In this document: positions 25,820-51,183 of the stretch, in pieces
Layout of the letters: each line of letters begins with the position of its first letter
Numbering within the stretch: position 1 is the stretch's first letter
Virus record (IMG/VR): IMGVR_UViG_3300035698_035310
Location: 1 to 64,000 of that record
From: a virus
Reading direction: 5' to 3' (one strand)
DNA: 64,000 nucleotides
Notes under the pieces: generated by a model
Told to the model about the DNA's origin: nothing
Databases searched by the model: none
The model's input: the letters and a program-made list of their open reading frames with translations, nothing else
Program-made: the position numbers and the translations under genes

Positions 25820-25827
25820 CATAAATA
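25820..25827 (+). promoter_or_regulatory. late promoter box four bases before ATG
   Basis: CATAAATA followed by CTAT and ATG 25832. Predicted start of transcription is at or next to the start codon. Confidence 0.5.
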
Positions 25828-25831
25828 CTAT

Positions 25832-26101
25832 ATGGATAATAGTACATTAATAGCGTTAGGAAGTTTGTTGTTTGCCATGATTGGTGGATTTTGGGGTGTC
25901 ATAACATACATCCTTGGAATCATCAAGGTGGAAAACGTTGAACGTCGTGGTGTCCAAGAAAAATTATATATGCGCGATGATGTAGCCAAAGATGTAATGA
26001 ACGAAAGTTTAACAGAAGTAAAAAGTACCATCCGTGATACGAATGATAGACTCATACGTGTAGAAACAATATTATATGAAAGAACTGATAGAACAAAATA
26101 A
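25832..26101 (+). CDS. small membrane protein with coiled coil
   Basis: 89 residues. One hydrophobic segment (about 8-30) and a charged helical tail. The layout is common among phage small membrane proteins. No ribosome binding site; the late promoter box abuts the ATG. Confidence 0.6.
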   Translation: MDNSTLIALGSLLFAMIGGFWGVITYILGIIKVENVERRGVQEKLYMRDDVAKDVMNESLTEVKSTIRDTNDRLIRVETILYERTDRTK

Positions 26102-26134
26102 AATATGGTTTTTAAGCAAAACGGTAATACGTTG

Positions 26135-26142
26135 TATAAATA
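26135..26142 (+). promoter_or_regulatory. late promoter box five bases before ATG
   Basis: Perfect TATAAATA, then GTTAT, then ATG 26148 of an endonuclease gene. Confidence 0.65.
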
Positions 26143-26147
26143 GTTAT

Positions 26148-26711
26148 ATGGTTGATTTAAGAAAGAGTTTGCAAACACCAAAAGTTTGCTGTATTGAATG
26201 TAAAACAATATTTAGAACTAATCATTTTGTTAGACACTCGAAGAAGCGATGTATTGAGTGGAAAAAGAAAAACGGCATGATCCCAAAAGGGAAGCGTGGC
26301 GGTTGGAATAAAGGATTAACGAAAATGACTAGTTCGTTGGTCAAAAAAGGAACCGATACTTATCGTCGCCGTTATGAAAATGGTGAATATACACGACGCA
26401 CACAAACCGATGATATAAAGAAACAATATTGGCAAGATTGTAAATTTAAATTCAATGTTTATAATTATCCTGAAATATTTGACTTAAATTTACTCGATAA
26501 ATTTGGGTGGTATCATCCTGTAGAAAATCCAAGTGGCGTAAGTAGAGATCATATTATTTCTGTATCATATGGATGGAAAAATGGTATAGATTCGAATATT
26601 ATTAATCATATAGCCAATTGTAAATTGATGATTCATTTAGAAAATAACAAAAAAAATAATCGATCTGATTTATTATTAGAAGAATTATTACAAAAAATAC
26701 ACTCTATGTAG
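26148..26711 (+). CDS. HNH-type homing endonuclease
   Basis: 187 residues from ATG 26148, placed five bases after a late promoter box. Cys-Cys finger CCIECKTIF near the start; a basic middle; the HNH core GVSRDHIISVSYGWKNGIDSNIINHIANCKLM at the end. Same family as the genes at 20693, 22947 and 28645. It sits just upstream of a tRNA run. Confidence 0.8.
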   Translation: MVDLRKSLQTPKVCCIECKTIFRTNHFVRHSKKRCIEWKKKNGMIPKGKRGGWNKGLTKMTSSLVKKGTDTYRRRYENGEYTRRTQTDDIKKQYWQDCKFKFNVYNYPEIFDLNLLDKFGWYHPVENPSGVSRDHIISVSYGWKNGIDSNIINHIANCKLMIHLENNKKNNRSDLLLEELLQKIHSM

Positions 26712-26742
26712 GGGTGGTGTGAATCTGAACCCTTACTCCAAT

Positions 26743-26816
26743 GTTCCGTTGACAGAATGGTTATGTGCGTGGCTGCAACCCGCGTTATCCCGGTTCGATT
26801 CCGGGACGGAACTCCA
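26743..26816 (+). tRNA. tRNA-Cys(GCA)
   Basis: Acceptor GTTCCGT/ACGGAAC, T73, CCA. Arm CGTGG-CTGCAAC-CCGCG gives GCA. Confidence 0.8.
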
Positions 26817-26824
26817 ATACATAT

Positions 26825-26899
26825 GCCCGGTTCGTCCAACGGTTAGGACACTCTCCCGATAAGAGAGGAATAGTGGTTCGATTCCACTACTGGGTACCA
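26825..26899 (+). tRNA. tRNA-Ile(GAU) with C33
   Basis: Acceptor GCCCGGT/ACTGGGT, A73, CCA; D stem GTCC/GGAC. Arm CTCTC-CCGATAA-GAGAG gives GAU, but position 33 is C instead of the near-universal U. Confidence 0.8.
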
Positions 26900-26920
26900 A
26901 TCAAACAATTTGACCTTAAT

Positions 26921-26994
26921 GGTCCGTTAGCTTAATAGAAAAGCACATGGCTGATAACCGTGCGACGGTGGAGCGTAACCATCACGGACTACCA
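26921..26994 (+). tRNA. tRNA-Ile(GAU)
   Basis: Acceptor GGTCCGT/ACGGACT, A73, CCA. Arm CATGG-CTGATAA-CCGTG gives GAU. T loop AGCGTAA type, unlike most others. Confidence 0.75.
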
Positions 26995-27110
26995 ATTATG
27001 ACATGATAGTTTAAACAGCTTATTAAATCCATGGATTGTGAGCAAAAGTAGAACATGCCCGTATTCGGGGCAAGATGAGGTGAAATGCCTTGAATGTCGC
27101 CAAGTTTAAT

Positions 27111-27184
27111 GCGGGTATCGTATAATGGAATTACTACACATTGCCTATGTGTAGACGGGGGTTCGATTCCCCCTACCCGCTCCA
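27111..27184 (+). tRNA. tRNA-Gly(GCC)
   Basis: Acceptor GCGGGTA/TACCCGC, T73, CCA. Arm ACACA-TTGCCTA-TGTGT gives GCC. The AATAAAT of a late promoter starts in its CCA tail. Confidence 0.85.
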
Positions 27185-27191
27185 ATAAATA
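27184..27191 (+). promoter_or_regulatory. late promoter box five bases before ATG
   Basis: AATAAATA then GAAAT then ATG 27197. The box begins at the last base of the tRNA-Gly CCA end. Confidence 0.55.
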
Positions 27192-27196
27192 GAAAT

Positions 27197-27451
27197 ATGA
27201 ACAGAGAAACATTTGCCAATGCGTTAGAATACTATAGAAATATCAATATCCCACATGGATTTGATACGTGGGCTTATTTTGATGATATGCCGCCTGTTTT
27301 AAAGGAACGTGTTCGTGAATCGATGTCAAATAGAAATAGTGTAGCCATACATCAGATATTCAATGACGATGGCATGGAAGTGGCTATTGCAGTTCTAAAT
27401 TTTTTAGACGAAACTGAAAAAGCGCAATATTATAAAACATACGACGATTAA
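27197..27451 (+). CDS. hypothetical acidic protein
   Basis: 84 residues, acidic, helical. No ribosome binding site; the late promoter box abuts the ATG. No family recognised. Confidence 0.55.
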   Translation: MNRETFANALEYYRNINIPHGFDTWAYFDDMPPVLKERVRESMSNRNSVAIHQIFNDDGMEVAIAVLNFLDETEKAQYYKTYDD

Positions 27452-27454
27452 TAT

Positions 27455-27541
27455 AGAAGTACTTTGTATTGGTGAACTCAGCAGTCTCCAAAACTGTGTC
27501 GCATTTGTGACTGGTAGGTTCGAATCCTACTACTTCTGCCA
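27455..27541 (+). tRNA. class II tRNA with Trp anticodon (CCA), serine-like body
   Basis: 87 nt. Acceptor AGAAGTA/TACTTCT, G73, CCA. Variable arm GTCGC/TGTGAC type stem. Arm GCAGT-CTCCAAA-ACTGT gives CCA; bacterial tRNA-Ser(CGA) has TCTCGAAAAC here, so one change at position 35 explains it. SerRS reads the variable arm and acceptor, not the anticodon, so this tRNA may carry serine. Confidence 0.7.
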
Positions 27542-27596
27542 ATTTAACTCCCCATGATAAATATCATTTGTGACATAACGCGAATGGGGTAATATC

Positions 27597-27929
27597 ATGA
27601 TGGACGATGATACAAAAAACAGGTTCATAAAAACATTCAGTGATTATATCACAATGATTAAAGGCAAGCATGAATGTGCAAGACTTGTTGATATTAAAAT
27701 GATGGATTTATATACAATTGCGCCACATATATGCATTGTAGATATAGAACATCCATCGTTACGAAAGAAAATTATATTTTTTGGAACACAATTGGTATTA
27801 AACGCTAATGCTGATTTAACTGGAACATACCTCGACTATGATGAATTAAACATTGATGATATATCCTTTCCATTATATGGTGATGGTGATATTATTGATC
27901 ACATTATAAGTGTTTCATTCAAAAATTAA
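27597..27929 (+). CDS. hypothetical protein
   Basis: 110 residues, acidic. Two tandem ATG codons (27597, 27600). A small CCCCAT/ATGGGG hairpin (27550-27589) lies just upstream and may shape initiation. No family recognised. Confidence 0.55.
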   Translation: MMDDDTKNRFIKTFSDYITMIKGKHECARLVDIKMMDLYTIAPHICIVDIEHPSLRKKIIFFGTQLVLNANADLTGTYLDYDELNIDDISFPLYGDGDIIDHIISVSFKN

Positions 27930-27932
27930 TAT

Positions 27933-28003
27933 ACCTCCGCTGATGGTTCAGACATAAGCTTGCGAAGCTTGTTGGGAAAGTTCGATTCTTTTCGGGGGTT
28001 CCA
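27933..28003 (+). tRNA. tRNA-Arg(GCG)
   Basis: Acceptor ACCTCCG/CGGGGGT, T73, CCA. Arm AAGC-TTGCGAA-GCTT gives GCG. Short D arm. Confidence 0.6.
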
Positions 28004-28029
28004 ATATTGTTATAGCTATGGAAATTAGT

Positions 28030-28130
28030 TCCTTCTTATCCCAACCTGTAGGTCGTAGGTTCGAATCCTGCTCCTCGCGCCAATTATGCGGGGATAGCTC
28101 AGTGGTAGAGCAACTGGCAATTTTACTGGT
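28030..28130 (+). tRNA. candidate permuted tRNA (3' half before 5' half)
   Basis: T arm GTAGG-TTCGAAT-CCTGC, 3' acceptor TCCTCGC (28072-28078), G73 and CCA come first; after ATTAT the matching 5' acceptor GCGGGGA (28088-28094) and a normal D arm follow. The 5' half runs to ACTGG, which could pair with CCTGT at 28046-28050 with one mismatch. Two independent remnants are the other explanation. Confidence 0.35.
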
Positions 28131-28165
28131 TCCAATTATTATAGCAATATTTTATTAAATAGGTC

Positions 28166-28360
28166 ATGAACAAGTATGACACGGCGTATAGAAATCGCAT
28201 TGCTGCCCAACGCAAACAGTGGGCAAACAATACGAAACAGCGTTTGTGGAATAAACGAATAAAGATATTGTATATTGCATGTGTATGTATTATAATCTCT
28301 TTATCGGTTGCGGCAGAAGTATTTGGATATTTAAATATAATATTTGGTTTTTTGTTGTAA
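28166..28360 (+). CDS. small membrane protein
   Basis: 64 residues. Basic N-terminal 30 residues and one hydrophobic segment (about 33-60). Ribosome binding site weak (TAGGTC). Confidence 0.5.
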   Translation: MNKYDTAYRNRIAAQRKQWANNTKQRLWNKRIKILYIACVCIIISLSVAAEVFGYLNIIFGFLL

Positions 28361-28368
28361 CATGATAT

Positions 28369-28446
28369 TGACTAGTAGCTCAGTGGTTTAGAGCGGGGAG
28401 TTCTAAACTCTCGACAGCGTTGGTTCAAATCCAACCTGGTCAACCA
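28369..28446 (+). tRNA. suppressor tRNA (CUA, amber)
   Basis: Acceptor TGACTAG/CTGGTCA, A73, CCA; D stem GCTC/GAGC; T arm GTTGG/CCAAC. The anticodon arm GGGAG-TTCTAAA-CTCTC places CUA at 28403-28405, which reads the stop codon UAG. All stems are intact. The amino acid it carries cannot be read from sequence with confidence; glutamine is frequent in phages. Confidence 0.8.
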
Positions 28447-28453
28447 ATACTAA

Positions 28454-28625
28454 GCGGGTATCGTATAATGGTATTATCGCAGCCTTCCATGTGATATGTT
28501 TAACATATCTCAGGTTGAGCCATTTATTGGCTCCTTGAAGGTCGAGGGTTCAGACCCCATCCGGTTTAAGCCCGGTAGACCAACTTAAGCTGATGACGGG
28601 AGTTCGATTCTCCCTACCCGCTCCA
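28454..28625 (+). tRNA. tRNA-Gly(UCC) interrupted at position 37/38
   Basis: Acceptor GCGGGTA/TACCCGC, T73, CCA, same body as the tRNA-Gly at 27111. The loop starts CTTCCA (anticodon 28486-28488), then 98 extra bases (28490-28587), then A38 and the closing stem GCTG. The insertion has its own GAGCC/GGCTC and GAGGGTTCAGACCCC stems. The site is the standard nuclear/archaeal tRNA intron site. Confidence 0.55.
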
Positions 28626-28631
28626 ATATTT

Positions 28632-28639
28632 GATAAATA
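28632..28639 (+). promoter_or_regulatory. late promoter box five bases before ATG
   Basis: GATAAATA then GTTAT then ATG 28645 of an endonuclease gene. Confidence 0.6.
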
Positions 28640-28644
28640 GTTAT

Positions 28645-29421
28645 ATGAAATGTAAACAATGTAAAATATCATTTACCCCTATCCCACAAGCAAAAAAAGG
28701 TATATTTTGTTCGCACGATTGTCATAATGTATACCAGCGCGTAAATACTCGTGAGCAATACTTAAAAAATCCCAAACGGTGTATTTTTTGTGATGATATA
28801 ATATCATATAGAGAAAATATAAAAGTGGCGAAGTTTTGCAATAGGTCTTGCGGGGCAAAATATAATAATAAAAGACGTACAGAATGCGGATACACCCCAA
28901 GTCATAAAAAATGGTCTAGTGGTAAAATATCTGCTAAAATGTCATCAAAAATGCGCCGTGCGGATATCAAATCAAGTGTCGTGTTTGGTGATTTTACTAT
29001 AATAACATTTGCTATATGCAATATTACGAATAAACCATATGTTCTACAAACACCGCATGGTGGTATAAAGCAAATATCACCATATATTAAATCATCTAAA
29101 CAGATATATTATGAGCAAGCCAAATTTCGATTTAATGTATATGACTATCCAGATATATTTGATATAACACTTTTAGAAAAATATGGATGGTATACATGTC
29201 CCGGCAAGAAACGAAAAAATCAAAAAAAGAATATAAATGGTGTAAGTAGAGATCATATAATATCTATCAATGATGGATTTAAGAATGGGTATGATCCATA
29301 TATTTTAGCACATCCTGCTAATTGTCGATTGATTAAACAAGTGGATAATGTTAAAAAATTAGATAAATCTAATATGTCATATGACGAGTTATTGATTAAC
29401 ATAAAACAATGGAATGGATAG
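28645..29421 (+). CDS. HNH-type homing endonuclease
   Basis: 258 residues. Starts with three Cys-rich fingers (CKQCKISF, CSHDC, CIFCDD, CNRSCGAKYNNKRR) and ends with the HNH core GVSRDHIISINDGFKNGYDPYILAHPANCRLI. The clearest member of the family in this window. It lies between tRNA-Gly(UCC) and tRNA-Thr. Confidence 0.85.
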   Translation: MKCKQCKISFTPIPQAKKGIFCSHDCHNVYQRVNTREQYLKNPKRCIFCDDIISYRENIKVAKFCNRSCGAKYNNKRRTECGYTPSHKKWSSGKISAKMSSKMRRADIKSSVVFGDFTIITFAICNITNKPYVLQTPHGGIKQISPYIKSSKQIYYEQAKFRFNVYDYPDIFDITLLEKYGWYTCPGKKRKNQKKNINGVSRDHIISINDGFKNGYDPYILAHPANCRLIKQVDNVKKLDKSNMSYDELLINIKQWNG

Positions 29422-29428
29422 ACTATTC

Positions 29429-29503
29429 GCCCCTATAGTACAATGGTTAATATGATCGCCCGGTAAGCGATAGATGAAAGTTCGATTCTTTCTAGAGGCA
29501 CCA
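29429..29503 (+). tRNA. tRNA-Thr(GGU) with C33
   Basis: Acceptor GCCCCTA/TAGAGGC (one mismatch), A73, CCA. Arm ATCGC-CCGGTAA-GCGAT gives GGU with C at position 33. Confidence 0.7.
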
Positions 29504-29510
29504 ATAAATA
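29503..29510 (+). promoter_or_regulatory. late promoter box five bases before ATG
   Basis: AATAAATA overlapping the CCA end of tRNA-Thr, then ACAAT, then ATG 29516. Confidence 0.55.
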
Positions 29511-29515
29511 ACAAT

Positions 29516-30331
29516 ATGACAATGACACCACCAAATATTATAATTTATAGTAATCCACGTTCAGGAACCACATTGCTTCATCATACATTATTATTATTTT
29601 TTCAAGAATATTATGGTGATTATTATTGTGATTTACATGAATTCTTTACAACATCGCATATGACAACGAGACATCGTAATAATATAGATGAAATAAATTC
29701 CATTACGTATGAACAGAATAACAATATATTAATAAAGACATACAAGCCAGCAGATACCGAAAGCAATGACTTCGAAGAAGAATTGCAACAACGAATTTCA
29801 CAATGGAACAATTGTGTAATAGCTGATAACAATCAGCCGTTTATAACAAAAATATTTCACAAAAATTTGATTGATCACAATTTTTCAAATACAATATTTG
29901 ATCATTCATTAAATTTGGTTCTTGTAAGAAAAAACGTACAAGATATGATATTGAGTTTTATAATATCAAATAGCAACAATAACTGGTTTTATTATGAAAA
30001 TGAAAATATAGAAACATTGCGCGGAAGTTTGATTGGTGATATAGATATAATACGCATTCATTTGGAACGCAATAAATTATTTCTTGAAAATATACCCAAT
30101 ATACCCAATGCATTAATCATTGATTATGATGAACTTAATGACTATGAATATTTTTATCAAGTTATTATAGATATGGGCATTGTTGATATTCGTGAATTGC
30201 ATGCCATGGAAATATTTGATAACATACAGCTAAAACGTAAAATTATTCCAACACCATATACAATGGATCGTATAGATTATTTTAAGAATGCCAATGAAAT
30301 AAAAACACTCATGGATGAATATTGTTCTTGA
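29516..30331 (+). CDS. sulfotransferase-like protein
   Basis: 271 residues. The N-terminal motif IIIYSNPRSGTTLLHHTLLL is the 5'-phosphosulfate-binding loop of PAPS-dependent sulfotransferases, and LVLVRKNVQDMILSFIISNSNN matches the 3'-phosphate-binding (R...S) motif. It would move a sulfuryl group to a sugar, peptide or lipid. In a phage it could alter the host envelope or virion glycans; the substrate is unknown. Start chosen five bases after the late promoter box. Confidence 0.75.
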   Translation: MTMTPPNIIIYSNPRSGTTLLHHTLLLFFQEYYGDYYCDLHEFFTTSHMTTRHRNNIDEINSITYEQNNNILIKTYKPADTESNDFEEELQQRISQWNNCVIADNNQPFITKIFHKNLIDHNFSNTIFDHSLNLVLVRKNVQDMILSFIISNSNNNWFYYENENIETLRGSLIGDIDIIRIHLERNKLFLENIPNIPNALIIDYDELNDYEYFYQVIIDMGIVDIRELHAMEIFDNIQLKRKIIPTPYTMDRIDYFKNANEIKTLMDEYCS

Positions 30332-30355
30332 CAATTTGTATCATTATGTTATTAT
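30328..30355 (+). promoter_or_regulatory. sigma70-type promoter
   Basis: TTGACA (30328), 16 bases, TATTAT (30350). Starts a three-gene operon. Confidence 0.65.
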
Positions 30356-30381
30356 AAACTCTTGAAATATGGAGAATTCCA

Positions 30382-30627
30382 ATGGATGATTATGATAAAA
30401 TGTTTGATAATATGATAGAAGGATTCAAATCTGGTAGATTTAATGCTAAGGATTGGAATTTTTGTATTGATATAAATCTTGCTAATAAAAAAGATGTTTA
30501 TGATGGTTATATCATGGGAACTGGTGCTGAACAATGCGCTGGTTGTAAATCGTTTTCGACAAGGGAAGAACTTGTTGATTTGTTTACCAAAGTAGGCGCA
30601 AGGTTTATAATGAATGGAGTTGGTTGA
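30382..30627 (+). CDS. hypothetical protein with CxxC
   Basis: 81 residues. A Cys pair CAGC near residue 53. Ribosome binding site TATGGAGAATTCCA. Stop overlaps the next start (TGATG), so coupled. Confidence 0.6.
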   Translation: MDDYDKMFDNMIEGFKSGRFNAKDWNFCIDINLANKKDVYDGYIMGTGAEQCAGCKSFSTREELVDLFTKVGARFIMNGVG

Positions 30628-30932
30628 TGGCACCTCATAGAGTACGACAATTGCATCGACCACGAAAAAAACCATATGGATTTGAAATATATGAAGATTC
30701 AACACCACTTAGTCTTGCCAATATTAGAAAGTGGTGCAAAAGTGTTATTGGTAATCTCGGCGAGCCACGCGGATGGTCATTAAAAGATGATACCATTTAT
30801 ATTAGAGGTCAAAAACGTGGTGGAAAACCCATGATTTATTTTATGGAAGAAAAACACGCTTTAGCATTTAAAAAAATGATAAACACAACAAATGTTGATG
30901 ATATACTTCTTTTTAAATTTATGTATTATTAA
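30627..30932 (+). CDS. small protein of the PMIYFMEE family, copy 1
   Basis: 101 residues. A basic N-terminus (RVRQLHRPRKKPYGFEIYED) and the C-terminal block MIYFMEEKHALAFK are shared with the next gene and, at the end, with the gene at 52075. Overlaps by one base with both neighbours. Confidence 0.65.
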   Translation: MAPHRVRQLHRPRKKPYGFEIYEDSTPLSLANIRKWCKSVIGNLGEPRGWSLKDDTIYIRGQKRGGKPMIYFMEEKHALAFKKMINTTNVDDILLFKFMYY

Positions 30933-31189
30933 TGGCAAACCGAATAAGACAAATGGTTCGCCCTAGAATAATGCCGTATGCGTTTAAAATTTATAGTGAT
31001 TTTATGGATCGACGTAATGTACATAAAGATCACAACAAACAAATGGCAATATATGGATGGGTTAAAGACACGTTTGGTGAATCTAACTATGATGTATGGA
31101 CTTCGCGGCGTGAACCCACACGATATGCAACAATGATATATTTTATGGATGATACATCCGCCATGGCATTTAAGCTGCAATGGATGTAA
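30932..31189 (+). CDS. small protein of the PMIYFMEE family, copy 2
   Basis: 85 residues, paralogue of the preceding gene (RIRQMVRPRIMPYAFKIY; TMIYFMDDTSAMAFKLQW). Starts within the previous stop codon (TAATG). Confidence 0.65.
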   Translation: MANRIRQMVRPRIMPYAFKIYSDFMDRRNVHKDHNKQMAIYGWVKDTFGESNYDVWTSRREPTRYATMIYFMDDTSAMAFKLQWM

Positions 31190-31358
31190 ATAAAGCGTGA
31201 TGATCGGGTATCTAGTTCGATTTTTATCGGGATACCAAAATTTTTAACCCAAATAATAGGAGTTCGACATGAAAACGGGATAACTTAGCGGCGGTTTGCC
31301 GCACACATGGATTACAGCTAAAATCAAGAAATTTAAACTTTAATTAAGGAGATACACA

Positions 31359-31928: not shown

Positions 31929-31933
31929 ATCAA

Positions 31934-32008: not shown

Positions 32009-32074
32009 ATTACATATTGCATTATATCCTATTTTTTTATATAATAAATAAAAAGAACAATAGGACACGAAACT

Positions 32075-34307: not shown

Positions 34308-34335
34308 TTGACATATATCAACAATAGTGTATTAT
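34308..34335 (+). promoter_or_regulatory. sigma70-type promoter, leaderless gene
   Basis: TTGACA (34308), 16 bases, TATTAT (34330-34335). The ATG at 34342 is six bases after the -10 box, so the message probably starts at the start codon. Confidence 0.6.
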
Positions 34336-36795: not shown

Positions 36796-37704
36796 ATGCT
36801 TTTTATTGGGTCTACTGCATTTAAACAACATCATAATTTACCGGGAATTTTACCGAAAGATATTGATGTTATGGGAACATACGAAGATGTTTCAAAGTAT
36901 GTAAAAAGTCTTCATGGTGATCTGGTTGCTGCAAGACCATTTGCGGAAGGTAAGAAATATCTTTTCGTTAAGGCTGGTGATCATAAATCACCCGAAACAA
37001 TTATTGAAGCAGAGATTGCGTGGGAAGGATCGTTAGCAGAAGAATTTATCAAATTGATGGATGATACTGCTGGACATACACGATATGCTACATTGAATGG
37101 TTTATATACCCTTAAGATGTCGCATCGATATTTGAGAAACTCGCCACATTTTTTAAAGACAATGCGTGATATTCATTTTATGAGAACACTGAAGGCTAGA
37201 ATTCCAGATGAGTTGAAGGATTTTTACAAACGGCGAATGGCAGCAACGTATGATTATTCTCATCCTAATTTGAGTGTTACGAAAAAGACATTTTTTGATG
37301 GTGATGGTATTGATTATAAATATGACCATGATTCAATCCATGAGACAGTTAAGATTGGTGAACATCCGGCTTATTGGTATTTTAAGCCAGATACAAGTGA
37401 AGTTGCGGTAAGCAAGGATTTGTTTGAAGCACTTGATTATGAATCACGAATCAATTCGGTTTTGGAAGAGGCGTATGTTCTTGCTATTGAACGTTCACAG
37501 GTTCCACATCCGGGTGTATTAACACGTAGAAAGAGTTTTGTTCTTGCATTAAATAAAGTATGCTCAAGCATTACTTCTGGATGGTGGAGAGAGTTCGCAT
37601 GGGAGAATTATGATTCTGTGTATGAACGATATGACGATTCATATATGTATCGTTTTAACGCTGGAATAGATAGTGGATTGGTAAAACCATTCAATGAGGG
37701 ATAG
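36796..37704 (+). CDS. nucleotidyltransferase-like protein
   Basis: 302 residues. The start LFIGSTAFKQHH...LPKDIDVMGTYED fits the GS...DxD signature of the nucleotidyltransferase fold, and EAEIAWEG may supply the third acid. The C-terminal half (His/Tyr/Trp rich) is unfamiliar. It might modify RNA or small molecules; weak assignment. Confidence 0.55.
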   Translation: MLFIGSTAFKQHHNLPGILPKDIDVMGTYEDVSKYVKSLHGDLVAARPFAEGKKYLFVKAGDHKSPETIIEAEIAWEGSLAEEFIKLMDDTAGHTRYATLNGLYTLKMSHRYLRNSPHFLKTMRDIHFMRTLKARIPDELKDFYKRRMAATYDYSHPNLSVTKKTFFDGDGIDYKYDHDSIHETVKIGEHPAYWYFKPDTSEVAVSKDLFEALDYESRINSVLEEAYVLAIERSQVPHPGVLTRRKSFVLALNKVCSSITSGWWREFAWENYDSVYERYDDSYMYRFNAGIDSGLVKPFNEG

Positions 37705-40630: not shown

Positions 40631-40840
40631 ATGACAATACCAGTTGCATTATATATAAAAAAGGCTGATGATGGATTTGATTTGGTCGTGAAAACATTAA
40701 ATGATGGCGTTGAGCATTTTGTAAATGATAATACAATAACAACCACGACAGAAGCGTTTGAATTGTTTGAGTTTTTGAAAGATAAATCAAATGAGAATGA
40801 AAATTATGACATTCAATATGTTAGTGATAATATATTATAA
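40631..40840 (+). CDS. small hypothetical protein
   Basis: 69 residues, acidic. Ribosome binding site AAGGGGGTAAC. Converges with the aspartoacylase-like gene, overlapping it by six bases. Confidence 0.6.
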   Translation: MTIPVALYIKKADDGFDLVVKTLNDGVEHFVNDNTITTTTEAFELFEFLKDKSNENENYDIQYVSDNIL

Positions 40841-41386
40841 GATTTTCATAACAGTTAATAACTGTATTATTCCTACGACACCTGCTTCAACACTTTCGTC
40901 ATGCATTTCGTCGACTCCTTCAAATGTTAATGAAGGAATATTATGTTGATCACAAAAATATCTTAAACTGTGTTCGGGTGCAGGTTGATAATAGTGTGGC
41001 AATCCCATTAACGATGCTATATTACTGGCACATTTATTTGGGAATACTGCTATTTCGTCAAGACCCGTTATAGGGGTGCTATGACAATCGATAACCAATT
41101 GTGATTGTTTGGTTTTCTCTTTAATTATATTGACCATATCGTCTAATTCAAGTATATTAGTTGATTGGTCGCCATATGCACGATTTAAGTTAACTCCGTT
41201 GAATTCACGGGTTTTATCGATGAATGCAGGTCGATTGGCGATAGGTATTATATGCACCCCATTATTTGGTGGTATTATTTTTGATAATTCTTGACATATT
41301 TCCACACCTATAGGCTCATTGCCATGTTGTCCGCCAATTATTAAACATTTAGAGGATGGTTTATCATATAATTCAAACAGTTTCAT
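40835..41386 (-). CDS. succinylglutamate desuccinylase/aspartoacylase-like protein
   Basis: 183 residues. Zinc-site pattern GGQHGNEPIG (HxxE), then NLNRAYGD, then VIDCHS, then a Glu in LTFEGVDE: the M14/AstE-AspA core. It would cleave an amide bond in a small substrate such as an N-acyl amino acid. The N-terminus KLFELYDK resembles the short lead shared by several genes here. A late promoter box GATAAATA lies five bases before the ATG on the minus strand. Confidence 0.7.
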   Translation of the reverse strand: MKLFELYDKPSSKCLIIGGQHGNEPIGVEICQELSKIIPPNNGVHIIPIANRPAFIDKTREFNGVNLNRAYGDQSTNILELDDMVNIIKEKTKQSQLVIDCHSTPITGLDEIAVFPNKCASNIASLMGLPHYYQPAPEHSLRYFCDQHNIPSLTFEGVDEMHDESVEAGVVGIIQLLTVMKIL

Positions 41387-41391: not shown

Positions 41392-41399
41392 TATTTATC
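41392..41399 (-). promoter_or_regulatory. late promoter box five bases before ATG
   Basis: On the minus strand: GATAAATA, TAAAT, ATG 41386. Confidence 0.6.
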
Positions 41400-43159: not shown

Positions 43160-44974
43160 ATGATTACAAAAACAAACAAACTGCTAATTTGTAAAGCTGG
43201 TGAAGTAGTGACTATTCAGGGTTGGGTTCATAGAACACGCGACCATGGCGGACTTACTTTCATCGATTTCCGCGATTATGAAGGATTGGTGCAGTGTGTT
43301 TTTGACAATTATGGTGGTACGGTTGATTATCATCATTTGCGGGATGAGTCTGTCGTCCGAATGACTGGTGCTGTCAGATTGCGACCAACGGGAACGGAAA
43401 ATCCTAACTTGCGTACAGGCGACATTGAGATTGAAGTTAGTGAGATAGAAATATTGAACGGCGCGGATGTGTTGCCATTTAAGGTGTTTGCTGAAGAAGA
43501 AGAATATACGCCGTCTTTGGAACAACGATTAAAATATCGTTATTTGGACTTGCGTCGTGATGAAAATCAAAAAATGTTGAAGTTGCGGTCTGATGTTCAG
43601 CATTTTATCAGAAACTACATGCATGATCAAGAATTCATAGAAGTTCAAACGCCTACCTTATCGTCGACGTCACCAGAAGGAGCAAGAGATTTTTTGATTC
43701 CGAGCAGAATACACAAAGGTCAAGTATATTCATTAATTCAATCACCACAAATTCAAAAACAATTGCTAATGGCGAGCGGTGTAGAAAAATACTATCAATT
43801 ATGTCGCTGTTGGCGCGATGAGGCGTCACGTTCTGATCGCGCACTTGAATTTACACAGTTGGATTTAGAAATTGGATTTGGCACACAAGAAATGGTGTTT
43901 AGTTTAGTTGAACCATTGTTGACAGAGATGTTTGAATCATATGGACTAGGATGGAAGTTGAATCAATCACCGAGATATGATGATGGCGATCATGGATTTG
44001 TGAGAATACCATATAAAGAATCAATTGAAAAATATGGCACGGATAAACCCGATCTACGGGCGAGTCTTGAAATGACCGATGTGACTATTTTATTCAAGAA
44101 GCAAGGGCCGCAATTCATTGTGGATGCTGTTGAATCAGGACAAATAGTTAAAGCAATACATCTTACGGATGCAGATGGATTAAGTGGTAAATTCTACAAA
44201 GATATTGAAAAATATGCTCAAGAGTTGGGTATGCCGGGATTGGGATATGTCAAATCTGGTTTCAGTGTAGATAATGGCGGAAACCCCGGACCATTGGCTA
44301 AAATGATGAATGCTGGACAATTGACGCAGTTAAGATCAATAGTTGGGTTTAATCCTTTATCTAGTGACACACAGGCAACCTTCCTTATGGTTGGGCATCC
44401 TAAAGCAGTAAACGCATGGGGTGCCGATTTACGGGTTGAGTTATCCAAGCGAACCAAAAACTTTGATGAAGAATCTTATGAGTTTTGTTGGATTGTAGAT
44501 TTTCCATTTTTTGAAGAAAATGAAGAAACGGGAAAGATTGATTTCTCGCATAATCCATTTAGTATGCCAAAAGGTGGCATGGAAGCATTGGAAAATAAAA
44601 ATCTGTTGGATATTTTAGCTTGTCAGTATGACACGGTTCTGAACGGAATGGAAATTAACAGTGGTGGCGAACGAAACTATAATCCAGAAATTATGAAAAA
44701 AGTTTTTGAAATAGTCGGATATGATGAATCGGTAGTTGAAGAAAAGTTTCCTTCGTTGTGGGGGGCGATGAAACTTGGTCATCCCCCTTGCGCTGGTTGT
44801 GCACCGGGTATAGACCGATTGATACAATTATTGATGTTTAAAGATGGTGGGCATATAAGAGATGTGACGGCATTTCCAATAGGTTCAAATGGGATTGATT
44901 TATTAATGGGGGCACCATCTGTGCCATCGGATGAACAAATTAAAGAGTTGGGTATTAAATTTCAGAAGAAATGA
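43160..44974 (+). CDS. aspS: aspartyl-tRNA synthetase
   Basis: 604 residues, bacterial-type length with the extra GAD-like insertion. The OB-fold anticodon-binding domain (GWVHRTRDHGGLTFIDFRD) comes first; class II motif 1 FIEVQTPTLSSTSPEGARDFL, motif 2 YQLCRCWRDEASRSDRALEFTQLDLE and motif 3 GCAPGIDRLIQLL follow. Charges tRNA-Asp; three tRNA-Asp(GUC) genes lie at 22.4-22.9 kb. Confidence 0.95.
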   Translation: MITKTNKLLICKAGEVVTIQGWVHRTRDHGGLTFIDFRDYEGLVQCVFDNYGGTVDYHHLRDESVVRMTGAVRLRPTGTENPNLRTGDIEIEVSEIEILNGADVLPFKVFAEEEEYTPSLEQRLKYRYLDLRRDENQKMLKLRSDVQHFIRNYMHDQEFIEVQTPTLSSTSPEGARDFLIPSRIHKGQVYSLIQSPQIQKQLLMASGVEKYYQLCRCWRDEASRSDRALEFTQLDLEIGFGTQEMVFSLVEPLLTEMFESYGLGWKLNQSPRYDDGDHGFVRIPYKESIEKYGTDKPDLRASLEMTDVTILFKKQGPQFIVDAVESGQIVKAIHLTDADGLSGKFYKDIEKYAQELGMPGLGYVKSGFSVDNGGNPGPLAKMMNAGQLTQLRSIVGFNPLSSDTQATFLMVGHPKAVNAWGADLRVELSKRTKNFDEESYEFCWIVDFPFFEENEETGKIDFSHNPFSMPKGGMEALENKNLLDILACQYDTVLNGMEINSGGERNYNPEIMKKVFEIVGYDESVVEEKFPSLWGAMKLGHPPCAGCAPGIDRLIQLLMFKDGGHIRDVTAFPIGSNGIDLLMGAPSVPSDEQIKELGIKFQKK

Positions 44975-45965: not shown

Positions 45966-46030
45966 TATTGCTTCCTTGCTTTACTATATAAATAGTTTTG
46001 GGGACACCAGTTACTTCCTTGCAACTGCTG

Positions 46031-46052
46031 TTTAGATGTCCTACCATCTAAA
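46031..46052 (+). other. hairpin between divergent genes
   Basis: TTTAGATG (46031-46038) pairs with CATCTAAA (46045-46052); a second CAGTT/AACTG hairpin lies just before. Confidence 0.4.
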
Positions 46053-46091
46053 CTTACCCTATATCTATTTATCAATAAAATTGGAAATCAA

Positions 46092-46598
46092 ATGCTTAAA
46101 TTAATGGAACAAATTGAAAACTTCAACGATCCACGTAAAGATGGGTTGTTGAAGTTCCATCAAGATAATATGGATTTTGTTAATACCGCAAAAGGGTCTT
46201 CGCATAACCATCAGGCATGGGAAGGTGGATATAAAGATCATATTGCTGAAACCTTGCGTATTGCTGATGTCGTTTATGCTGGAATGTCGCAAATACGTGA
46301 AATGCCATTTGAACTTGATTCGGGCAAAATTTGTTTATTATTGCACGATATTGAGAAAATATGGAAATATTCAACGGGTGAAGATATCAATAAACAGTCT
46401 TGGTATACTAATATCTTACCAACAGTTTATAAAGTTGAATTGACCGATGATGAAATGAATGCATTAGAATATACACATGGCGAAGTTGACGATCACTCTA
46501 AAACAGAGAGAAAAATGGGTCGACTAGCAGCATTTGTTCATGCTTGTGATTGTATGTCAGCAAGATTGTGGCACGATGAAGGTAAAGGATTGGGCTAA
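46092..46598 (+). CDS. HD-domain phosphohydrolase
   Basis: 168 residues. H...H...HD...D pattern: SSHNHQAWEGGYKDHI, LLLHDIEKIW (HD), YTHGEVDDHS and AFVHACDCMSARLW. A metal-dependent phosphohydrolase of nucleotides, cyclic nucleotides or RNA; substrate unknown. Confidence 0.8.
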   Translation: MLKLMEQIENFNDPRKDGLLKFHQDNMDFVNTAKGSSHNHQAWEGGYKDHIAETLRIADVVYAGMSQIREMPFELDSGKICLLLHDIEKIWKYSTGEDINKQSWYTNILPTVYKVELTDDEMNALEYTHGEVDDHSKTERKMGRLAAFVHACDCMSARLWHDEGKGLG

Positions 46599-46701
46599 AT
46601 AAAAACATAGGCGGTAGGATAAGTGCTCCACACATGGTGGTAATGATTATTTAATCGGCAATATGCTATACCCAGCGCCCGTTGATGCGTGGTAACAGAA
46701 A

Positions 46702-47130
46702 TCAACTACTTTCTAATTTTGCTACTTCTGATTCCCAATCGATGGGAAGTATTTCACGAATATGGCTATATTTAAATTTTATAATATGTTTTGCTGGATC
46801 GCTGTCGCCATAATCGAAATCAAGTTTGTGCTCTATGCATTCACTTGATACAAGTTCAATTGAGCAATATGGATTGGATGAACTAGCGAGTGGTTCTACA
46901 TATATTGGTAATGTGTTTTTGACTATGAAATTAACCACATTAATCATCGATAGTTCTACTGATTGTCTAATGGTTACATCAAATGTTTTATTTTTCATGT
47001 CGATTGAGCATTTTTCAATATTTCGTGTAATACATGCTTGATCTTTGTAAAATATAGCATGACCAAAAATCACACGAAATTGATATTTAAGAACAGGCAT
47101 CATCATGCCTTGTTTTTCTTTTTTTGTCAT
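46702..47130 (-). CDS. hypothetical protein, possibly virion component
   Basis: 142 residues. The start MMPVLKYQFRVIFG resembles the first strand of phage tail-tube-type proteins, but only weakly. No ribosome binding site stronger than AGGAATTAAT. Confidence 0.5.
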   Translation of the reverse strand: MTKKEKQGMMMPVLKYQFRVIFGHAIFYKDQACITRNIEKCSIDMKNKTFDVTIRQSVELSMINVVNFIVKNTLPIYVEPLASSSNPYCSIELVSSECIEHKLDFDYGDSDPAKHIIKFKYSHIREILPIDWESEVAKLESS

Positions 47131-47191
47131 TATTAATTCCTATAAAGATGAGGGGGTATAATAATATTTATACTATAAATTAAGTGTGGTT

Positions 47192-47647
47192 TTAAAGGGT
47201 TTCGTCGGATTTATTTTTTTCACGCGATCCCTGTGATAACAAATCAAATAATGCTTCTTTGTTTGCTTTTTTTAGGTCATTGTCGACCATATATGATTTA
47301 TAATCTTTTATGATTTTTTGTACTGCTTGTTTATCACCAGTATGCAATGCTGTTTTATATGCATCATATATATCATCGCGATTTACTTTTTCTAAATTGT
47401 ACTCAGTTCTTATTATATTTCTTAATCGAACGTCGTCTGGAAGGTTTCTGCCGACACCACGACCACGTTCGTTTTTGTCCCATGTTTTACCAGCATACTT
47501 TTTTAACGCTGCTTTGGCGTCGGGTCCGCCAGCCCCCACAATGCCAGCATTTGCTGCATTTGCGGTATTTGCAATACCTTTGCCGACGTTTTTTGCAATA
47601 TCTGCAACGCCTTCATCTATATTTTCAAATAGTTCTATAAGTTTCAT
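47192..47647 (-). CDS. hypothetical protein with KLIELFE lead
   Basis: 151 residues. N-terminal MKLIELFENIDEG, a Gly/Ala/Asn-rich stretch and a basic helical tail. Shares the short N-terminal lead type with 41386(-), 47670 and 50914. Perfect late promoter box five bases before the ATG. Confidence 0.65.
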   Translation of the reverse strand: MKLIELFENIDEGVADIAKNVGKGIANTANAANAGIVGAGGPDAKAALKKYAGKTWDKNERGRGVGRNLPDDVRLRNIIRTEYNLEKVNRDDIYDAYKTALHTGDKQAVQKIIKDYKSYMVDNDLKKANKEALFDLLSQGSREKNKSDETL

Positions 47648-47652
47648 ACTAT

Positions 47653-47664
47653 TATTTATAAATA
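47653..47664. promoter_or_regulatory. bidirectional late promoter palindrome
   Basis: TATTTATAAATA reads TATAAATA on both strands. On each strand exactly five bases separate the box from an ATG (47670 on +, 47647 on -). Confidence 0.75.
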
Positions 47665-47669
47665 ACTAC

Positions 47670-47951
47670 ATGAGAGCAAAAGAATTTATAACAGAATACA
47701 TCGGTGATTTGAGTGATTGGGTAATATTATCCAAAAATGCTATATTGTCGAGAATTGCAAAGGGTGAAATACCCAATAATCCAGATTCCATAAAGAAAGC
47801 CGCTATGGATTTGGCTTCACGTATAAAAGATTCCAATGGTGATCCAATACAAGATGTAAGTCCTGAAATGCTTGCTGCCGAAGTAGAACGTCAGATTGAA
47901 TATGATAATTTGTATGACAATTCTCATCTGGGTGGAAAAATACCACAATAA
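47670..47951 (+). CDS. hypothetical protein with MRAKEFITE lead
   Basis: 93 residues, start ATG 47670 (no ribosome binding site). MRAKEFITEYIGDL, then a helical acidic body. The MRA(K/H)E(F/I) lead recurs at 50914. Confidence 0.65.
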   Translation: MRAKEFITEYIGDLSDWVILSKNAILSRIAKGEIPNNPDSIKKAAMDLASRIKDSNGDPIQDVSPEMLAAEVERQIEYDNLYDNSHLGGKIPQ

Positions 47952-47954
47952 CTA

Positions 47955-47982
47955 TTGACACGTATATATAACGTGTTATTAT
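47955..47982 (+). promoter_or_regulatory. sigma70-type promoter
   Basis: TTGACA (47955), 16 bases, TATTAT (47977). An ACGTATATATAACGT palindrome lies in the spacer and could be an operator. Confidence 0.65.
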
Positions 47983-48015
47983 CATAAACTATTATATCGA
48001 ACAAGGAGAAGTATT

Positions 48016-48444
48016 ATGGCCTTACTTAAGGGTACTGGTGTTCTTGTATACGATCCTCCTCGTCCGGGTATGAAAAATACTGATTGGTGGATTGTAGTGA
48101 ACACCGATAATGAAATTTGCCGCTACTATCGTTGGTGGGTTTGGAAACGGTACATGATCGTTCTGAACCAGCCTTCTTGGGGTGCACACATTTCCGTTCT
48201 TCGTGGTGGTAAGCCACGCGAGGACAAAATTCATTTGTGGAAAAAGTATCAAGGTGAAAAAATTGATTTTGAATATTCACCAAACATTCATCAACAGGGT
48301 GATGACACTGGTGATTTAGGACCACACTGGTTTGTTGATGCATGGTCTGAGCGTCTTAGCGACATTCGCGAAGAACTTGGTTTCACAAACGAATTTGGTG
48401 GGAAAAAGATTAAGTATCACCTAACTTGTGGGCGTACCAACTAG
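48016..48444 (+). CDS. conserved phage protein, possibly 2H-like
   Basis: 142 residues. Trp/Tyr-rich. Two H-x-S/T-h motifs, WGAHISVLRG (about 56-65) and IKYHLTCGR (about 131-139), are spaced as in 2H phosphoesterases. Weak but suggestive. Ribosome binding site CAAGGAGAAGTATT. Confidence 0.6.
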   Translation: MALLKGTGVLVYDPPRPGMKNTDWWIVVNTDNEICRYYRWWVWKRYMIVLNQPSWGAHISVLRGGKPREDKIHLWKKYQGEKIDFEYSPNIHQQGDDTGDLGPHWFVDAWSERLSDIREELGFTNEFGGKKIKYHLTCGRTN

Positions 48445-48460
48445 GTACGTCCTTTTTTCT
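48430..48460 (+). terminator. hairpin terminator overlapping gene end
   Basis: GGGCGTACC (48430-48438) pairs with GGTACGTCC (48444-48452) and TTTTTT follows. The stem begins inside the coding sequence. Confidence 0.85.
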
Positions 48461-48487
48461 TGACTTAATTTAATATGAGTGTATAAT
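48460..48487 (+). promoter_or_regulatory. sigma70-type promoter
   Basis: TTGACT (48460), 16 bases, TATAAT (48482). Drives the tRNA at 48497 and the gene after it. Confidence 0.65.
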
Positions 48488-48496
48488 ATATTTAAT

Positions 48497-48572
48497 GTCG
48501 TGGTGGCGAAATTGGTAACGCGATGGCTTGCAAAGATATTTATTGGGTGTTCGAGTCACCCCCACGACTCCA
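48497..48572 (+). tRNA. tRNA-Cys(GCA)-like
   Basis: Acceptor GTCGTGG/CCACGAC, T73, CCA. Loop TTGCAAA gives GCA; the anticodon stem has one mismatch. Isolated from the main array. Confidence 0.65.
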
Positions 48573-48591
48573 AATTTTAAAGGAGATATTC

Positions 48592-49416
48592 ATGAGTAAC
48601 GTTATTGGTGGGCAACAACGGGTTAGATTAATATTTGATAAACGTGCGTCAAATGTTCTATTTGCGAAAGGTCAAAAACGATTATTCAGTGAACCAAATG
48701 GCACTAATCTTATGTTGACTCCTATTATGGGCGGTGGCATCGAAAAAGCAGGTCGCCGTGGTAGTAATAAAAACGGTAAAGTCAATATGGGTGATGAGAT
48801 ATTTCACGATAAAAAAACTGATTGTGCAGAAACTGTTTTATATTATGGAACAAAAGATGCAATGAATTACTATCCTGTTCGGGGACAAGCGCAAATCTAT
48901 CGATCTGGTTATCAATATTATATTGATGAAGTCGATAAATCAAAATATGCGGAATTTGGAAAAGTAACCATTGATTATATTGACGCGTTCGATGAGGATG
49001 ATATTGAAAAATTAAGTTTCGACTTCAATACACCCGCATCGAATAAATATTTTTCTGATATTTTAAGAAATCGCGCAAATGGCGTAGTTGAACCGGGTCG
49101 TATGGCATTATTTTTATATAACGGCAAACCAGCAATTAATTTTTCACCAACTGGTAATGCCATGGCGTTTGCCAAGGTATGGGCAAAAGGACCAGGTACG
49201 GTAAAGGGTGATTTCCATAAAGATGTTGTTAGAAATTTAAAACTTATCCCTGGATCGAGATATAAATTCATCGTTGATGCTTATGATGCTTATGATGCTG
49301 ATATTGTGTATTTGGAATATTTGTCGGAAGTTACTCATTTTGCACAAGTTGAGAAGTATGATTTTCCAGTTGTGACTGCATCCATTGTTCGTAAAAAAGG
49401 CGATTCTTGGGAGTAA
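48592..49416 (+). CDS. hypothetical protein
   Basis: 274 residues from ATG 48592 after AAAGGAGATATTC. Mixed alpha/beta with a DAYDAYDADIVYLEYL acidic/aromatic stretch at the C-terminal third. Unknown; could be structural or an enzyme. It follows directly a tRNA on the same transcript. Confidence 0.65.
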   Translation: MSNVIGGQQRVRLIFDKRASNVLFAKGQKRLFSEPNGTNLMLTPIMGGGIEKAGRRGSNKNGKVNMGDEIFHDKKTDCAETVLYYGTKDAMNYYPVRGQAQIYRSGYQYYIDEVDKSKYAEFGKVTIDYIDAFDEDDIEKLSFDFNTPASNKYFSDILRNRANGVVEPGRMALFLYNGKPAINFSPTGNAMAFAKVWAKGPGTVKGDFHKDVVRNLKLIPGSRYKFIVDAYDAYDADIVYLEYLSEVTHFAQVEKYDFPVVTASIVRKKGDSWE

Positions 49417-49424
49417 TAGAGTTT

Positions 49425-49853
49425 TTATGCTTGTAGTAAGTGTTTTTCTTGCATAAATTCAATAAATTTCATATCGGTTTTTTTAACATGTTCTTCGACG
49501 ACTAATGCGAACGATGTTAAGACTTCAATGTGTGATAAAGGGTCATTTGGGTCATTTGCGACACTTAATAGCATATCAGTCATAATTTTCATGTATTTAG
49601 CATGTTCAATTATGTGTTCATTAGCATATGGATATTTTTGTTTTTTCATGTATATATTTTCATCATGAAAGTGTATAAGCATAAAATCTATGAGATATAG
49701 TGCTTGTTCTTTGATTGTCGCATGATCTTTATCGTCGGCGAGACATTCCACTAGAATATTATATCTGTTAAATATTTCTTTGTGTGCATCATCGGTTGAT
49801 TTATCGAAGCACGTTAGAGTGTCGTCCCATTTAATCATTTGATAGTTTTCCAT
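49425..49853 (-). CDS. bacteriohemerythrin
   Basis: 142 residues. IKWDDTLTCFDKSTDDAHKEIF, then FMLIHFHDENIYMKKQKYP, then EHIIEHAKYM supply the His and Glu ligands of a di-iron hemerythrin. The fold binds O2 or senses oxygen/iron. A single-domain phage copy is unusual. CAATAAATA lies 12 bases upstream of the ATG. Confidence 0.85.
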   Translation of the reverse strand: MENYQMIKWDDTLTCFDKSTDDAHKEIFNRYNILVECLADDKDHATIKEQALYLIDFMLIHFHDENIYMKKQKYPYANEHIIEHAKYMKIMTDMLLSVANDPNDPLSHIEVLTSFALVVEEHVKKTDMKFIEFMQEKHLLQA

Positions 49854-49871
49854 AGTGCTATAGTTTATTTA

Positions 49872-49900
49872 TTGACATATATAAATAGATTTGTTATAAT
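49872..49900 (+). promoter_or_regulatory. sigma70-type promoter
   Basis: TTGACA (49872), 17 bases, TATAAT (49895). The spacer also carries ATAAATA, so early and late polymerase forms may share it. Confidence 0.7.
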
Positions 49901-49926
49901 TATTTATTAAAAGAGGAGAAATTAAT

Positions 49927-50169
49927 ATGGGATTCCCAATAGTAGCAGCGTTTGGACTTGGAATGGTAGGCGCAGTAGGCGCAAAAGTTGGAACACAGCA
50001 TGTTTATCCATGGTTGGTTGAAAATGCTAGCAAAGGCAAAGAAACATTGAATGATTGGTTAGATTATACACTCGCCAAGGTGGAAACAAAGTTTGATTTC
50101 GAACATGCTGAGTTAAAAGGCGACATTGAAGAAAAAAATATCGAAAGAAATATGAACATCATCAAATAA
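49927..50169 (+). CDS. small membrane protein
   Basis: 80 residues. Gly/Ala-rich hydrophobic N-terminal segment (about 1-25) then an amphipathic helix. Ribosome binding site AGAGGAGAAATTAAT. Confidence 0.6.
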   Translation: MGFPIVAAFGLGMVGAVGAKVGTQHVYPWLVENASKGKETLNDWLDYTLAKVETKFDFEHAELKGDIEEKNIERNMNIIK

Positions 50170-50243
50170 ATGTTGACTAAATGTTGACTATATGCAATAT
50201 TGTGATAATATAAGTAAATATTACAAACATTGGAGTAAAGCGC

Positions 50244-50288
50244 ATGTCTATAAAAAATTTAAAAGAAGGTAAATGTGAATTCCGTTAG
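50244..50288 (+). CDS. possible 14-aa leader peptide
   Basis: ATG after TGGAGTAAAGCGC; SIKNLKEGKCEFR then TAG. It lies between a TTGACT/GATAAT promoter-like pair and the gene at 50315 and could couple expression. Confidence 0.35.
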   Translation: MSIKNLKEGKCEFR

Positions 50289-50314
50289 GTAACTTAACTT
50301 AATGGAGAAAACAC

Positions 50315-50905
50315 ATGAGCAACACAAAAACTACCGACAAGATCATTCTTATACATGAGGATGGCAATCGTTGGGTATTTAATGACATATATGATGCTGC
50401 AATCAAATTGATTGATTGGAAATTAATTTATCATTGGGGGTCTGATTCTCACATTGGTGATCATTTTGGATTGATTTATGATACCGGCATCAATTGTTTT
50501 GGCAAACCAATAGGTCGTGTATCGTATATTTTACGCTCGGAATTTGGCGACGTTATCACCAAAGACGACATATCCGAAGCATTCGCAAAAATACGAACAG
50601 ATTCACGAAATGCTAGAATTGATAAAGAAATAGCACGCGCACAACGAAATTTCCGTTGTGCTCCAGAACCAAGTACTGGTTACAGACGATATGGAAATTG
50701 TTATCGTCATATTAGCACATATTCTGAACATCGCGATAATGATGCACTCAATTACGATGATGATGCAATAGAATACAATATTAAATCTCGTTCAAAACGC
50801 ACTAAGTCATATCTTCCTAATTATTGGGATGATCGCATTCGTTCTGATTATGACGTTAAAAATTGGAAACGACAGCGCAAAACACAGTGGAAGCAAAAGG
50901 ACTAA
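50315..50905 (+). CDS. hypothetical protein with basic C-terminus
   Basis: 196 residues. N-terminal 90 residues alpha/beta, C-terminal half rich in Arg/Lys/Tyr/His. The layout hints at RNA or DNA binding. Unknown. Confidence 0.65.
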   Translation: MSNTKTTDKIILIHEDGNRWVFNDIYDAAIKLIDWKLIYHWGSDSHIGDHFGLIYDTGINCFGKPIGRVSYILRSEFGDVITKDDISEAFAKIRTDSRNARIDKEIARAQRNFRCAPEPSTGYRRYGNCYRHISTYSEHRDNDALNYDDDAIEYNIKSRSKRTKSYLPNYWDDRIRSDYDVKNWKRQRKTQWKQKD

Positions 50906-50908
50906 ATA
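50901..50908 (+). promoter_or_regulatory. weak late promoter box five bases before ATG
   Basis: ACTAAATA then TATTC then ATG 50914; six of eight consensus bases, same spacing as the other cases. Confidence 0.4.
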
Positions 50909-50913
50909 TATTC

Positions 50914-51183
50914 ATGAGAGCACATGAAATACTTATTGAAGCAAATCTTGAAACTTTAAAAAAGAATAAAGTTGTATTGAGCGACGAAGAGCGTACCAAA
51001 GTTATGGATGCTGGCGCAATTTGGCATCATGGGCCTAATGGCGCACCTTCACCAGCTATATGGAAAGGTAAAGATAGTAAAGGTAAAATGTGGTATGCAT
51101 GTAATACACATAGGGCTTGCGCAATAGAAGATTCATTAAGTAAAGCAATTAAAGAATATCCATCAATAGAGGCATCAGCATAA
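50914..51183 (+). CDS. hypothetical protein with MRAHEILIE lead
   Basis: 89 residues. MRAHEILIEANLETLKKNKV, then a compact module with AIWHHGPNGAPSPAIWKG and CNTHRACAIED. No family recognised. Next ATG is one base after its stop. Confidence 0.6.
   Translation: MRAHEILIEANLETLKKNKVVLSDEERTKVMDAGAIWHHGPNGAPSPAIWKGKDSKGKMWYACNTHRACAIEDSLSKAIKEYPSIEASA

Follow-up and report, generated by a model that had tools for sequence, protein, structure and literature searches.

Late promoter boxes set five bases before ATG point to leaderless late messages in a giant phage and in environmental relatives of T4

Introduction

Where does transcription begin at a phage late gene whose promoter box stands exactly five bases before the start codon, and does the message of such a gene have a leader? 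The question is raised by a stretch of viral DNA of 64,000 nucleotides (nt), positions 1-64,000 of the 359-kb IMG/VR record IMGVR_UViG_3300035698_035310 (hereafter the window), in which several genes carry the box ATAAATA at this spacing. The model for replication-coupled gene control is T4 late transcription, whose messages have leaders. At the genes with closely spaced boxes described here, T4-type late promoters very probably make leaderless messages. A search of the open-licence literature, which could miss work in subscription journals such as cyanophage start-site maps, turned up no account of leaderless late messages in this phage group. A published study that used cyanomyophage criteria did not find late promoters of pelagimyophages (PMC7029224).

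Results

The initial annotation had listed ATAAATA followed by five bases and ATG at seven genes on both strands, a weaker box at one further gene and a box four bases before ATG at another, none with a ribosome binding site. In what follows, d is the number of bases between box and start codon, and N5 means d=5. All of these sites were present in the window:

26136..26142, + strand, late box ATAAATA, 5 bases before ATG 26148
26148..26711, + strand, predicted leaderless gene, homing-endonuclease-like (phrog_23051, weak endonuclease VII)
27185..27191, + strand, late box, first base directly after tRNA-Gly (27111-27184), 5 bases before ATG 27197
27197..27451, + strand, predicted leaderless gene, 84 amino acids (aa), no function assigned
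28633..28639, + strand, late box, 5 bases before ATG 28645
28645..29421, + strand, predicted leaderless gene, endonuclease-like (phrog_23051 / weak HNH endonuclease)
29504..29510, + strand, late box, first base directly after tRNA-Thr (29429-29503), 5 bases before ATG 29516
29516..30331, + strand, predicted leaderless gene, sulfotransferase-like (PF00685)
47658..47664, + strand, late box of ATG 47670, within the palindrome TATTTATAAATA common to the divergent gene on the - strand
47670..47951, + strand, predicted leaderless gene, capsid-targeting-like N-terminus MRAKEFITE
47653..47659, - strand, late box of the divergent gene, ATG 47647
47192..47647, - strand, predicted leaderless gene, N-terminus MKLIELFE
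41392..41398, - strand, late box, 5 bases before ATG 41386
40835..41386, - strand, predicted leaderless gene, AstE/AspA-type deacylase domain (PF24827), N-terminus MKLFELYDK
50902..50908, + strand, variant late box CTAAATA, 5 bases before ATG 50914 (MRAHEILIEA)
25821..25827, + strand, late box, 4 bases before ATG 25832 (gene 25832-26101, 89 aa)

Eight exact ATAAATA-N5-ATG matches were found in the window, where about one was expected. Seven head genes; the eighth (37316-37330) lies inside a gene, opens a reading frame of 27 codons and corresponds to the one chance match expected. ATAAATA occurs 40 times in the window. Eight copies were followed by ATG at spacing 5, whereas the other spacings from 0 to 60 gave 1.08 on average and 3 at most (Poisson p = 2e-5), and third-order Markov sequences (n = 100) gave a mean of 1.08 N5 matches and a maximum of 5. 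In the whole record the pattern occurred 16 times and its reverse once. Genes and their upstream regions were examined in the window and a further ~104 kb, together about half of the record, alongside searches of the record. In these stretches an ATG heading an open reading frame (ORF) of at least 40 codons lay exactly 5 bases after 13 of 99 ATAAATA boxes, and 0 or 1 such ATG was found at each other spacing up to 28. The absence of a ribosome binding site was borne out, with a Shine-Dalgarno motif at none of the 14 genes with d=4-5 in the same stretches; 57% of long ORFs in this genome have one.

The same genome also holds late boxes at a distance from the start codon. Twenty late-box contexts, some of which share a gene, lie 24-44 bases before an ATG led by a Shine-Dalgarno motif. 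Six in the window, each with such a motif, are:

307..313, + strand, leadered late box (contrast class), 34 bases before ATG 348
5941..5947, + strand, leadered late box, ATG 5982
11980..11986, + strand, leadered late box, ATG 12020
23913..23919, + strand, leadered late box, ATG 23957
49881..49887, + strand, leadered late box, ATG 49927
47165..47171, - strand, leadered late box, ATG 47130

A pyrimidine-purine (YR) step peaked at box+5/+6 in 14 of the 20 leadered boxes, and in 12 of these it was TA. Because this step coincides with the T|A of ATG in the short-spaced class, the genome itself points to the A of ATG as +1. Transcription from the late boxes would therefore start about 6 bases after the box, as at T4-type late promoters.

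Spacing was then compared across IMG/VR by a fixed-gap scan (ATAAATA-N5-ATGAGAGC; 80 loci examined among the matches listed) and a free-gap scan (ATAAATA, a gap of 0-30 bases, then ATGAGAGCNNNNGAATT; 83 matches listed). Of the 83 free-gap matches, 56 had d=4-8, with 40 of them at d=5 itself; d=9-14 was empty, and d=15-29 accounted for 27. Box-to-ATG spacing in the IMG/VR contigs was bimodal, with a spike at 4-8 (mode 5) and a second hump at 15-26. Most of the 80 fixed-gap loci encode the N-terminus MRAxEF(I/L)xE; when such MRA genes were removed, the IMG loci, counted after deduplication, still gave 25 genes at d=4, 47 at d=5, only 1-3 per spacing from 9 to 16 and a hump at d=17-25. The unoccupied range of d=9-14 translates into leader lengths of about 4-9 bases. 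In Lactococcus cremoris, mapped leaders also show a bimodal length distribution, from which 4-14 nt is absent (PMC10986495). Counted over whole records, 23 IMG contigs held 121 N5 matches and 24 reversed-pattern matches; the contigs had been selected for an MRA match, so that a small part of this excess arises by construction.

The spike at d=5 was specific to both box and start codon. It was seen neither with other A/T-rich seven-mers nor with GTG, TTG or CTG starts, and leaderless messages are known to prefer AUG (PMC9031893). A Shine-Dalgarno motif was present at 3% of d=4-5 genes vs 59-66% of d=15-26 genes (chance, 7%), and in 6 of 179 short-class genes of the IMG loci. The base before ATG at d=5 was T or C in 13/13 cases in this genome and, once MRA genes were excluded, in 46/47 IMG cases; before the ATG of Shine-Dalgarno genes it was mostly A or T. 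No conserved -35 element was found: across 140 distinct IMG sites, no position from -50 to -14 exceeded 0.09 bits, and conservation upstream of the box was limited to a weak preference at -13.

The same pattern was seen when genes were selected by protein homology. Relatives of two families were collected through their protein sequence alone; an N5 box had drawn attention to the founding member of each. Among large terminase relatives of one environmental phage group, NTAAATA lay 4-7 bases before ATG in 58 of 61 distinct upstream regions (35 at spacing 5, 21 at 6); none had a Shine-Dalgarno motif, and the d=5 spacers comprised 26 different sequences. For a small conserved membrane-like protein, the box was at 4-8 in 47 of the 56 distinct upstream regions examined. 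This second family, with the motif MWIxSxLPxWVFH..., has 515 or more relatives in IMG.

In the first 50 kb of the cultured pelagiphage HTVC008M, seven N5 sites coincide with annotated coding sequence starts. The genes are those for tape measure, DNA end protector (gp2), baseplate tail-tube cap (gp48-type), baseplate wedge (gp25-type), CsgF, a dioxygenase and a hypothetical protein, and two CTAAATA-N5 sites head a head-completion gene and a cyclase-annotated gene. The terminase family and the structural genes of HTVC008M indicate that the boxes drive late (virion) genes. For this genome's own N5 genes, the link to virion or late function consists only of capsid-targeting-like N-termini and endonucleases.

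Within the window, the N5 genes include the endonuclease-like genes at 26148 and 28645, the sulfotransferase-like gene at 29516, which had no homologs in IMG/VR, and the AstE/AspA-like gene at 41386 (-). Several encode short proteins with MRAxE or MKLxEL N-termini that resemble the T4 capsid targeting sequence, a resemblance judged by eye; the motif MRAxEF(I/L)xE recurs among N5 matches. The product of 40835-41386 (-), with a deacylase domain behind such an N-terminus, might be a virion-carried enzyme. The divergent start codons 47647 and 47670 are only 22 base pairs (bp) apart and have the palindrome in common. Similar back-to-back starts occur 26 bp apart in HTVC008M (gp2-type and gp4-type genes) and 25-32 bp apart in four IMG loci.

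Discussion

We propose that the ATAAATA boxes act as T4-type late promoters that would serve two classes of late gene. In one, the promoter would be placed so that transcription begins on the A of ATG, and the resulting leaderless message would presumably be read through direct recognition of AUG by the 70S ribosome. In the other, leaders of about 10-35 bases would carry a Shine-Dalgarno motif. Leaders of 4-9 bases would be avoided. T4 late boxes lie at about -13 to -6 (PMC2988020), which together with N5 spacing sets the A of ATG at +1. The proposal of the initial annotation that these messages start on the ATG thus draws support from the T4 coordinates, the bimodal spacing, the restriction to ATG, the pyrimidine at -1 and the lack of a -35 element. 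The missing Shine-Dalgarno motifs, the initiator position in leadered boxes, the genes chosen by protein and the annotated starts of HTVC008M argue for it as well. As a complete promoter and start site, the 15-bp unit of box, N5 and ATG fits directly after tRNA 3' ends and permits back-to-back divergent genes 22-32 bp apart. So compact a unit is well suited to cargo genes inserted between tRNA genes.

The box could be a late promoter with the true start elsewhere, either at a shifted position that gives a short leader or upstream with read-through, translation then using an A/U-rich S1-type site. The region is indeed A/T-rich, some genes have d=4, 6, 7 or 8 instead of 5, and many follow tRNA or other genes, where read-through is possible. 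Such starts would nevertheless leave the exact spacing, the gap at d=9-14, the ATG-only rule and the pyrimidine at -1 unexplained. Between back-to-back ATGs 22-32 bp apart there is no space for leaders, provided that each gene is transcribed from its own box, and the leadered class of the same genome fixes +1 at box+6; we regard this explanation as unlikely. Were ATAAATA-N5 a translation element, an A/T-rich ribosome site like those of hosts that do not use Shine-Dalgarno motifs, its position upstream of start codons in place of that motif would be accounted for. This possibility was rejected as very improbable: 20 start contexts with a Shine-Dalgarno motif have this box too, 24-44 bases upstream and with a YR initiator at box+5/+6, a fixed feature that a translation element would not need, and more than half of the long ORFs of this genome use Shine-Dalgarno motifs.

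RNA processing might also generate the 5' ends, trimming of tRNA 3' ends releasing messages that begin next to the gene, and two boxes (27185 and 29504) do begin directly after a tRNA. Trimming there would, however, give 12-base leaders without a Shine-Dalgarno motif, and at the majority of sites, in this genome and in relatives, no tRNA precedes the box, which makes this origin more improbable still. Chance matches in A/T-rich DNA have the least probability of all. One of the eight N5 matches in the window (37316) does look random, but for the class as a whole chance is refuted by the spike in spacing and start codon, by enrichment in window, record and relatives, and by near-complete conservation at the terminase gene.

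Several observations weigh against leaderless late expression. The RNA 5' ends are predicted from the offset of the box, and the form of the polymerase and the mode of leaderless translation are likewise deduced. The late machinery is not proven in this record: gp55 was not found there with phrog_234, phrog_12791 or our own alignment, and record searches for sigma-70 region 2, the gp45 clamp and terminase found none of these. The N5 class was not seen in T4, Syn9, S-PM2 or P-SSM2; T4 has only two N5 matches, neither at an annotated gene start. Counts from the IMG sets are not fully independent, as the sets include related sequences. A terminase must exist and yet was not found; probably, then, the record lacks part of the genome or is very divergent, and missing hits are not proof of absence. 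Relatives of gp55 were found in HTVC008M and in three of the four large IMG contigs tested, which have the N5 class. In one IMG contig (G001), an intein-like insertion seems to split the gp55 relative. For a gp23-like major capsid gene, only a fragment of 41 positions was found (record positions 209766-209888), in a short ORF amid many small ORFs; the gene is possibly split by an intron or other insertion.

T4 late promoters (TATAAATA, dependent on gp55, gp33 and gp45) match those described here in core box, (T)ATAAATA, lack of a -35 element, box position and use at late or structural genes on both strands. In contrast, T4 late genes have leaders and Shine-Dalgarno motifs, whereas N5 spacing fuses the promoter with the start codon. 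Known leaderless messages of bacteria and phages (lambda cI, L. cremoris, mycobacteria) share the absence of Shine-Dalgarno motifs, the use of AUG only, leaders of at most a few bases and bimodal leader lengths; unlike the genes described here, which have a phage late promoter and include essential structural genes, they are transcribed from host-type promoters.

In T4, late promoters beside the endonuclease genes segB and I-TevI ensure that only late transcripts are translated (PMC2988022). These homing endonucleases of tRNA and intron contexts resemble the window genes in having a late promoter directly upstream, and segB lies within the T4 tRNA cluster. They differ in that segB keeps a Shine-Dalgarno motif and the hairpin-controlled genes of T4 keep one that is masked in longer transcripts (PMC2988022), whereas none is present here. 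T4 internal head proteins likewise have a short N-terminus of the form basic-x-x-E-F (MKTFKEF in IpI, beside MRAKEFITE and MRAHEILIE here) with an (I/L)xE-like motif, and diverse bodies behind the common N-terminus. This likeness spans about 9 residues compared by eye; in T4 the prohead protease cleaves this short N-terminal signal.

Leaderless late expression should then be a mode that T4 itself does not use, found in this giant phage and in many environmental T4 relatives. Should it hold for a large share of the T4-like phages in oceans and lakes, gene calling based on Shine-Dalgarno motifs may set their start codons wrongly, and these promoters will escape any late-promoter search in which a leader is assumed. 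Such phages would also offer a 15-bp promoter-plus-start unit and, for work on leaderless translation, a natural system of high output. A broader proposal, that many environmental T4-like phages including pelagiphages express essential virion genes leaderlessly as a distinct late-phase mode of translation, and that phages like this one carry an IF3 of their own to tune the balance between leaderless and Shine-Dalgarno translation, is doubtful and offered tentatively.

Other features of the window

ARAGORN reported 28 tRNA genes between 17997 and 48572, with several copies for Lys, Val, Asp, Phe and Ile. One, at 28369-28446 (ARAGORN), has the anticodon CUA (amber reading) and lies in the tRNA cluster shortly before gene 28645. 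An aspartyl-tRNA synthetase-like gene (604 aa) occupies 43160-44974, and several of its tblastn matches are annotated aspS.

Two sigma-70 genes had also been described as apparently leaderless in the initial annotation, and as a pattern this holds at both (TTGACA-16-TATTAT-6-ATG and TTGACT-17-TATACT-6-ATG):

34308..34335, + strand, sigma-70 promoter TTGACA-16-TATTAT, 6 bases before ATG 34342, possibly a leaderless early gene
51776..51804, + strand, sigma-70 promoter TTGACT-17-TATACT, 6 bases before ATG 51811
14020..14538, + strand, phage translation initiation factor IF3 (IF3_N and IF3_C), TTG start, Shine-Dalgarno AAGGAG

Other sigma-70-like promoters, in which 5-8 bases separate the -10 hexamer from ATG, lie at record positions 204776(-), 266839(+), 273376(-) and 273457(+), and leaderless early genes may also be common. 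The near relatives of the window sought in the phage collection searched were not found. Excess IF3 is reported to inhibit leaderless translation and low amounts to help it (PMC9031893), so that an effect of the phage IF3 on the late genes, itself hypothetical, could run in either direction. Two genes upstream of the IF3 gene, 12988-13437 encodes a short protein with a match to the TROVE (Ro60-type) domain.

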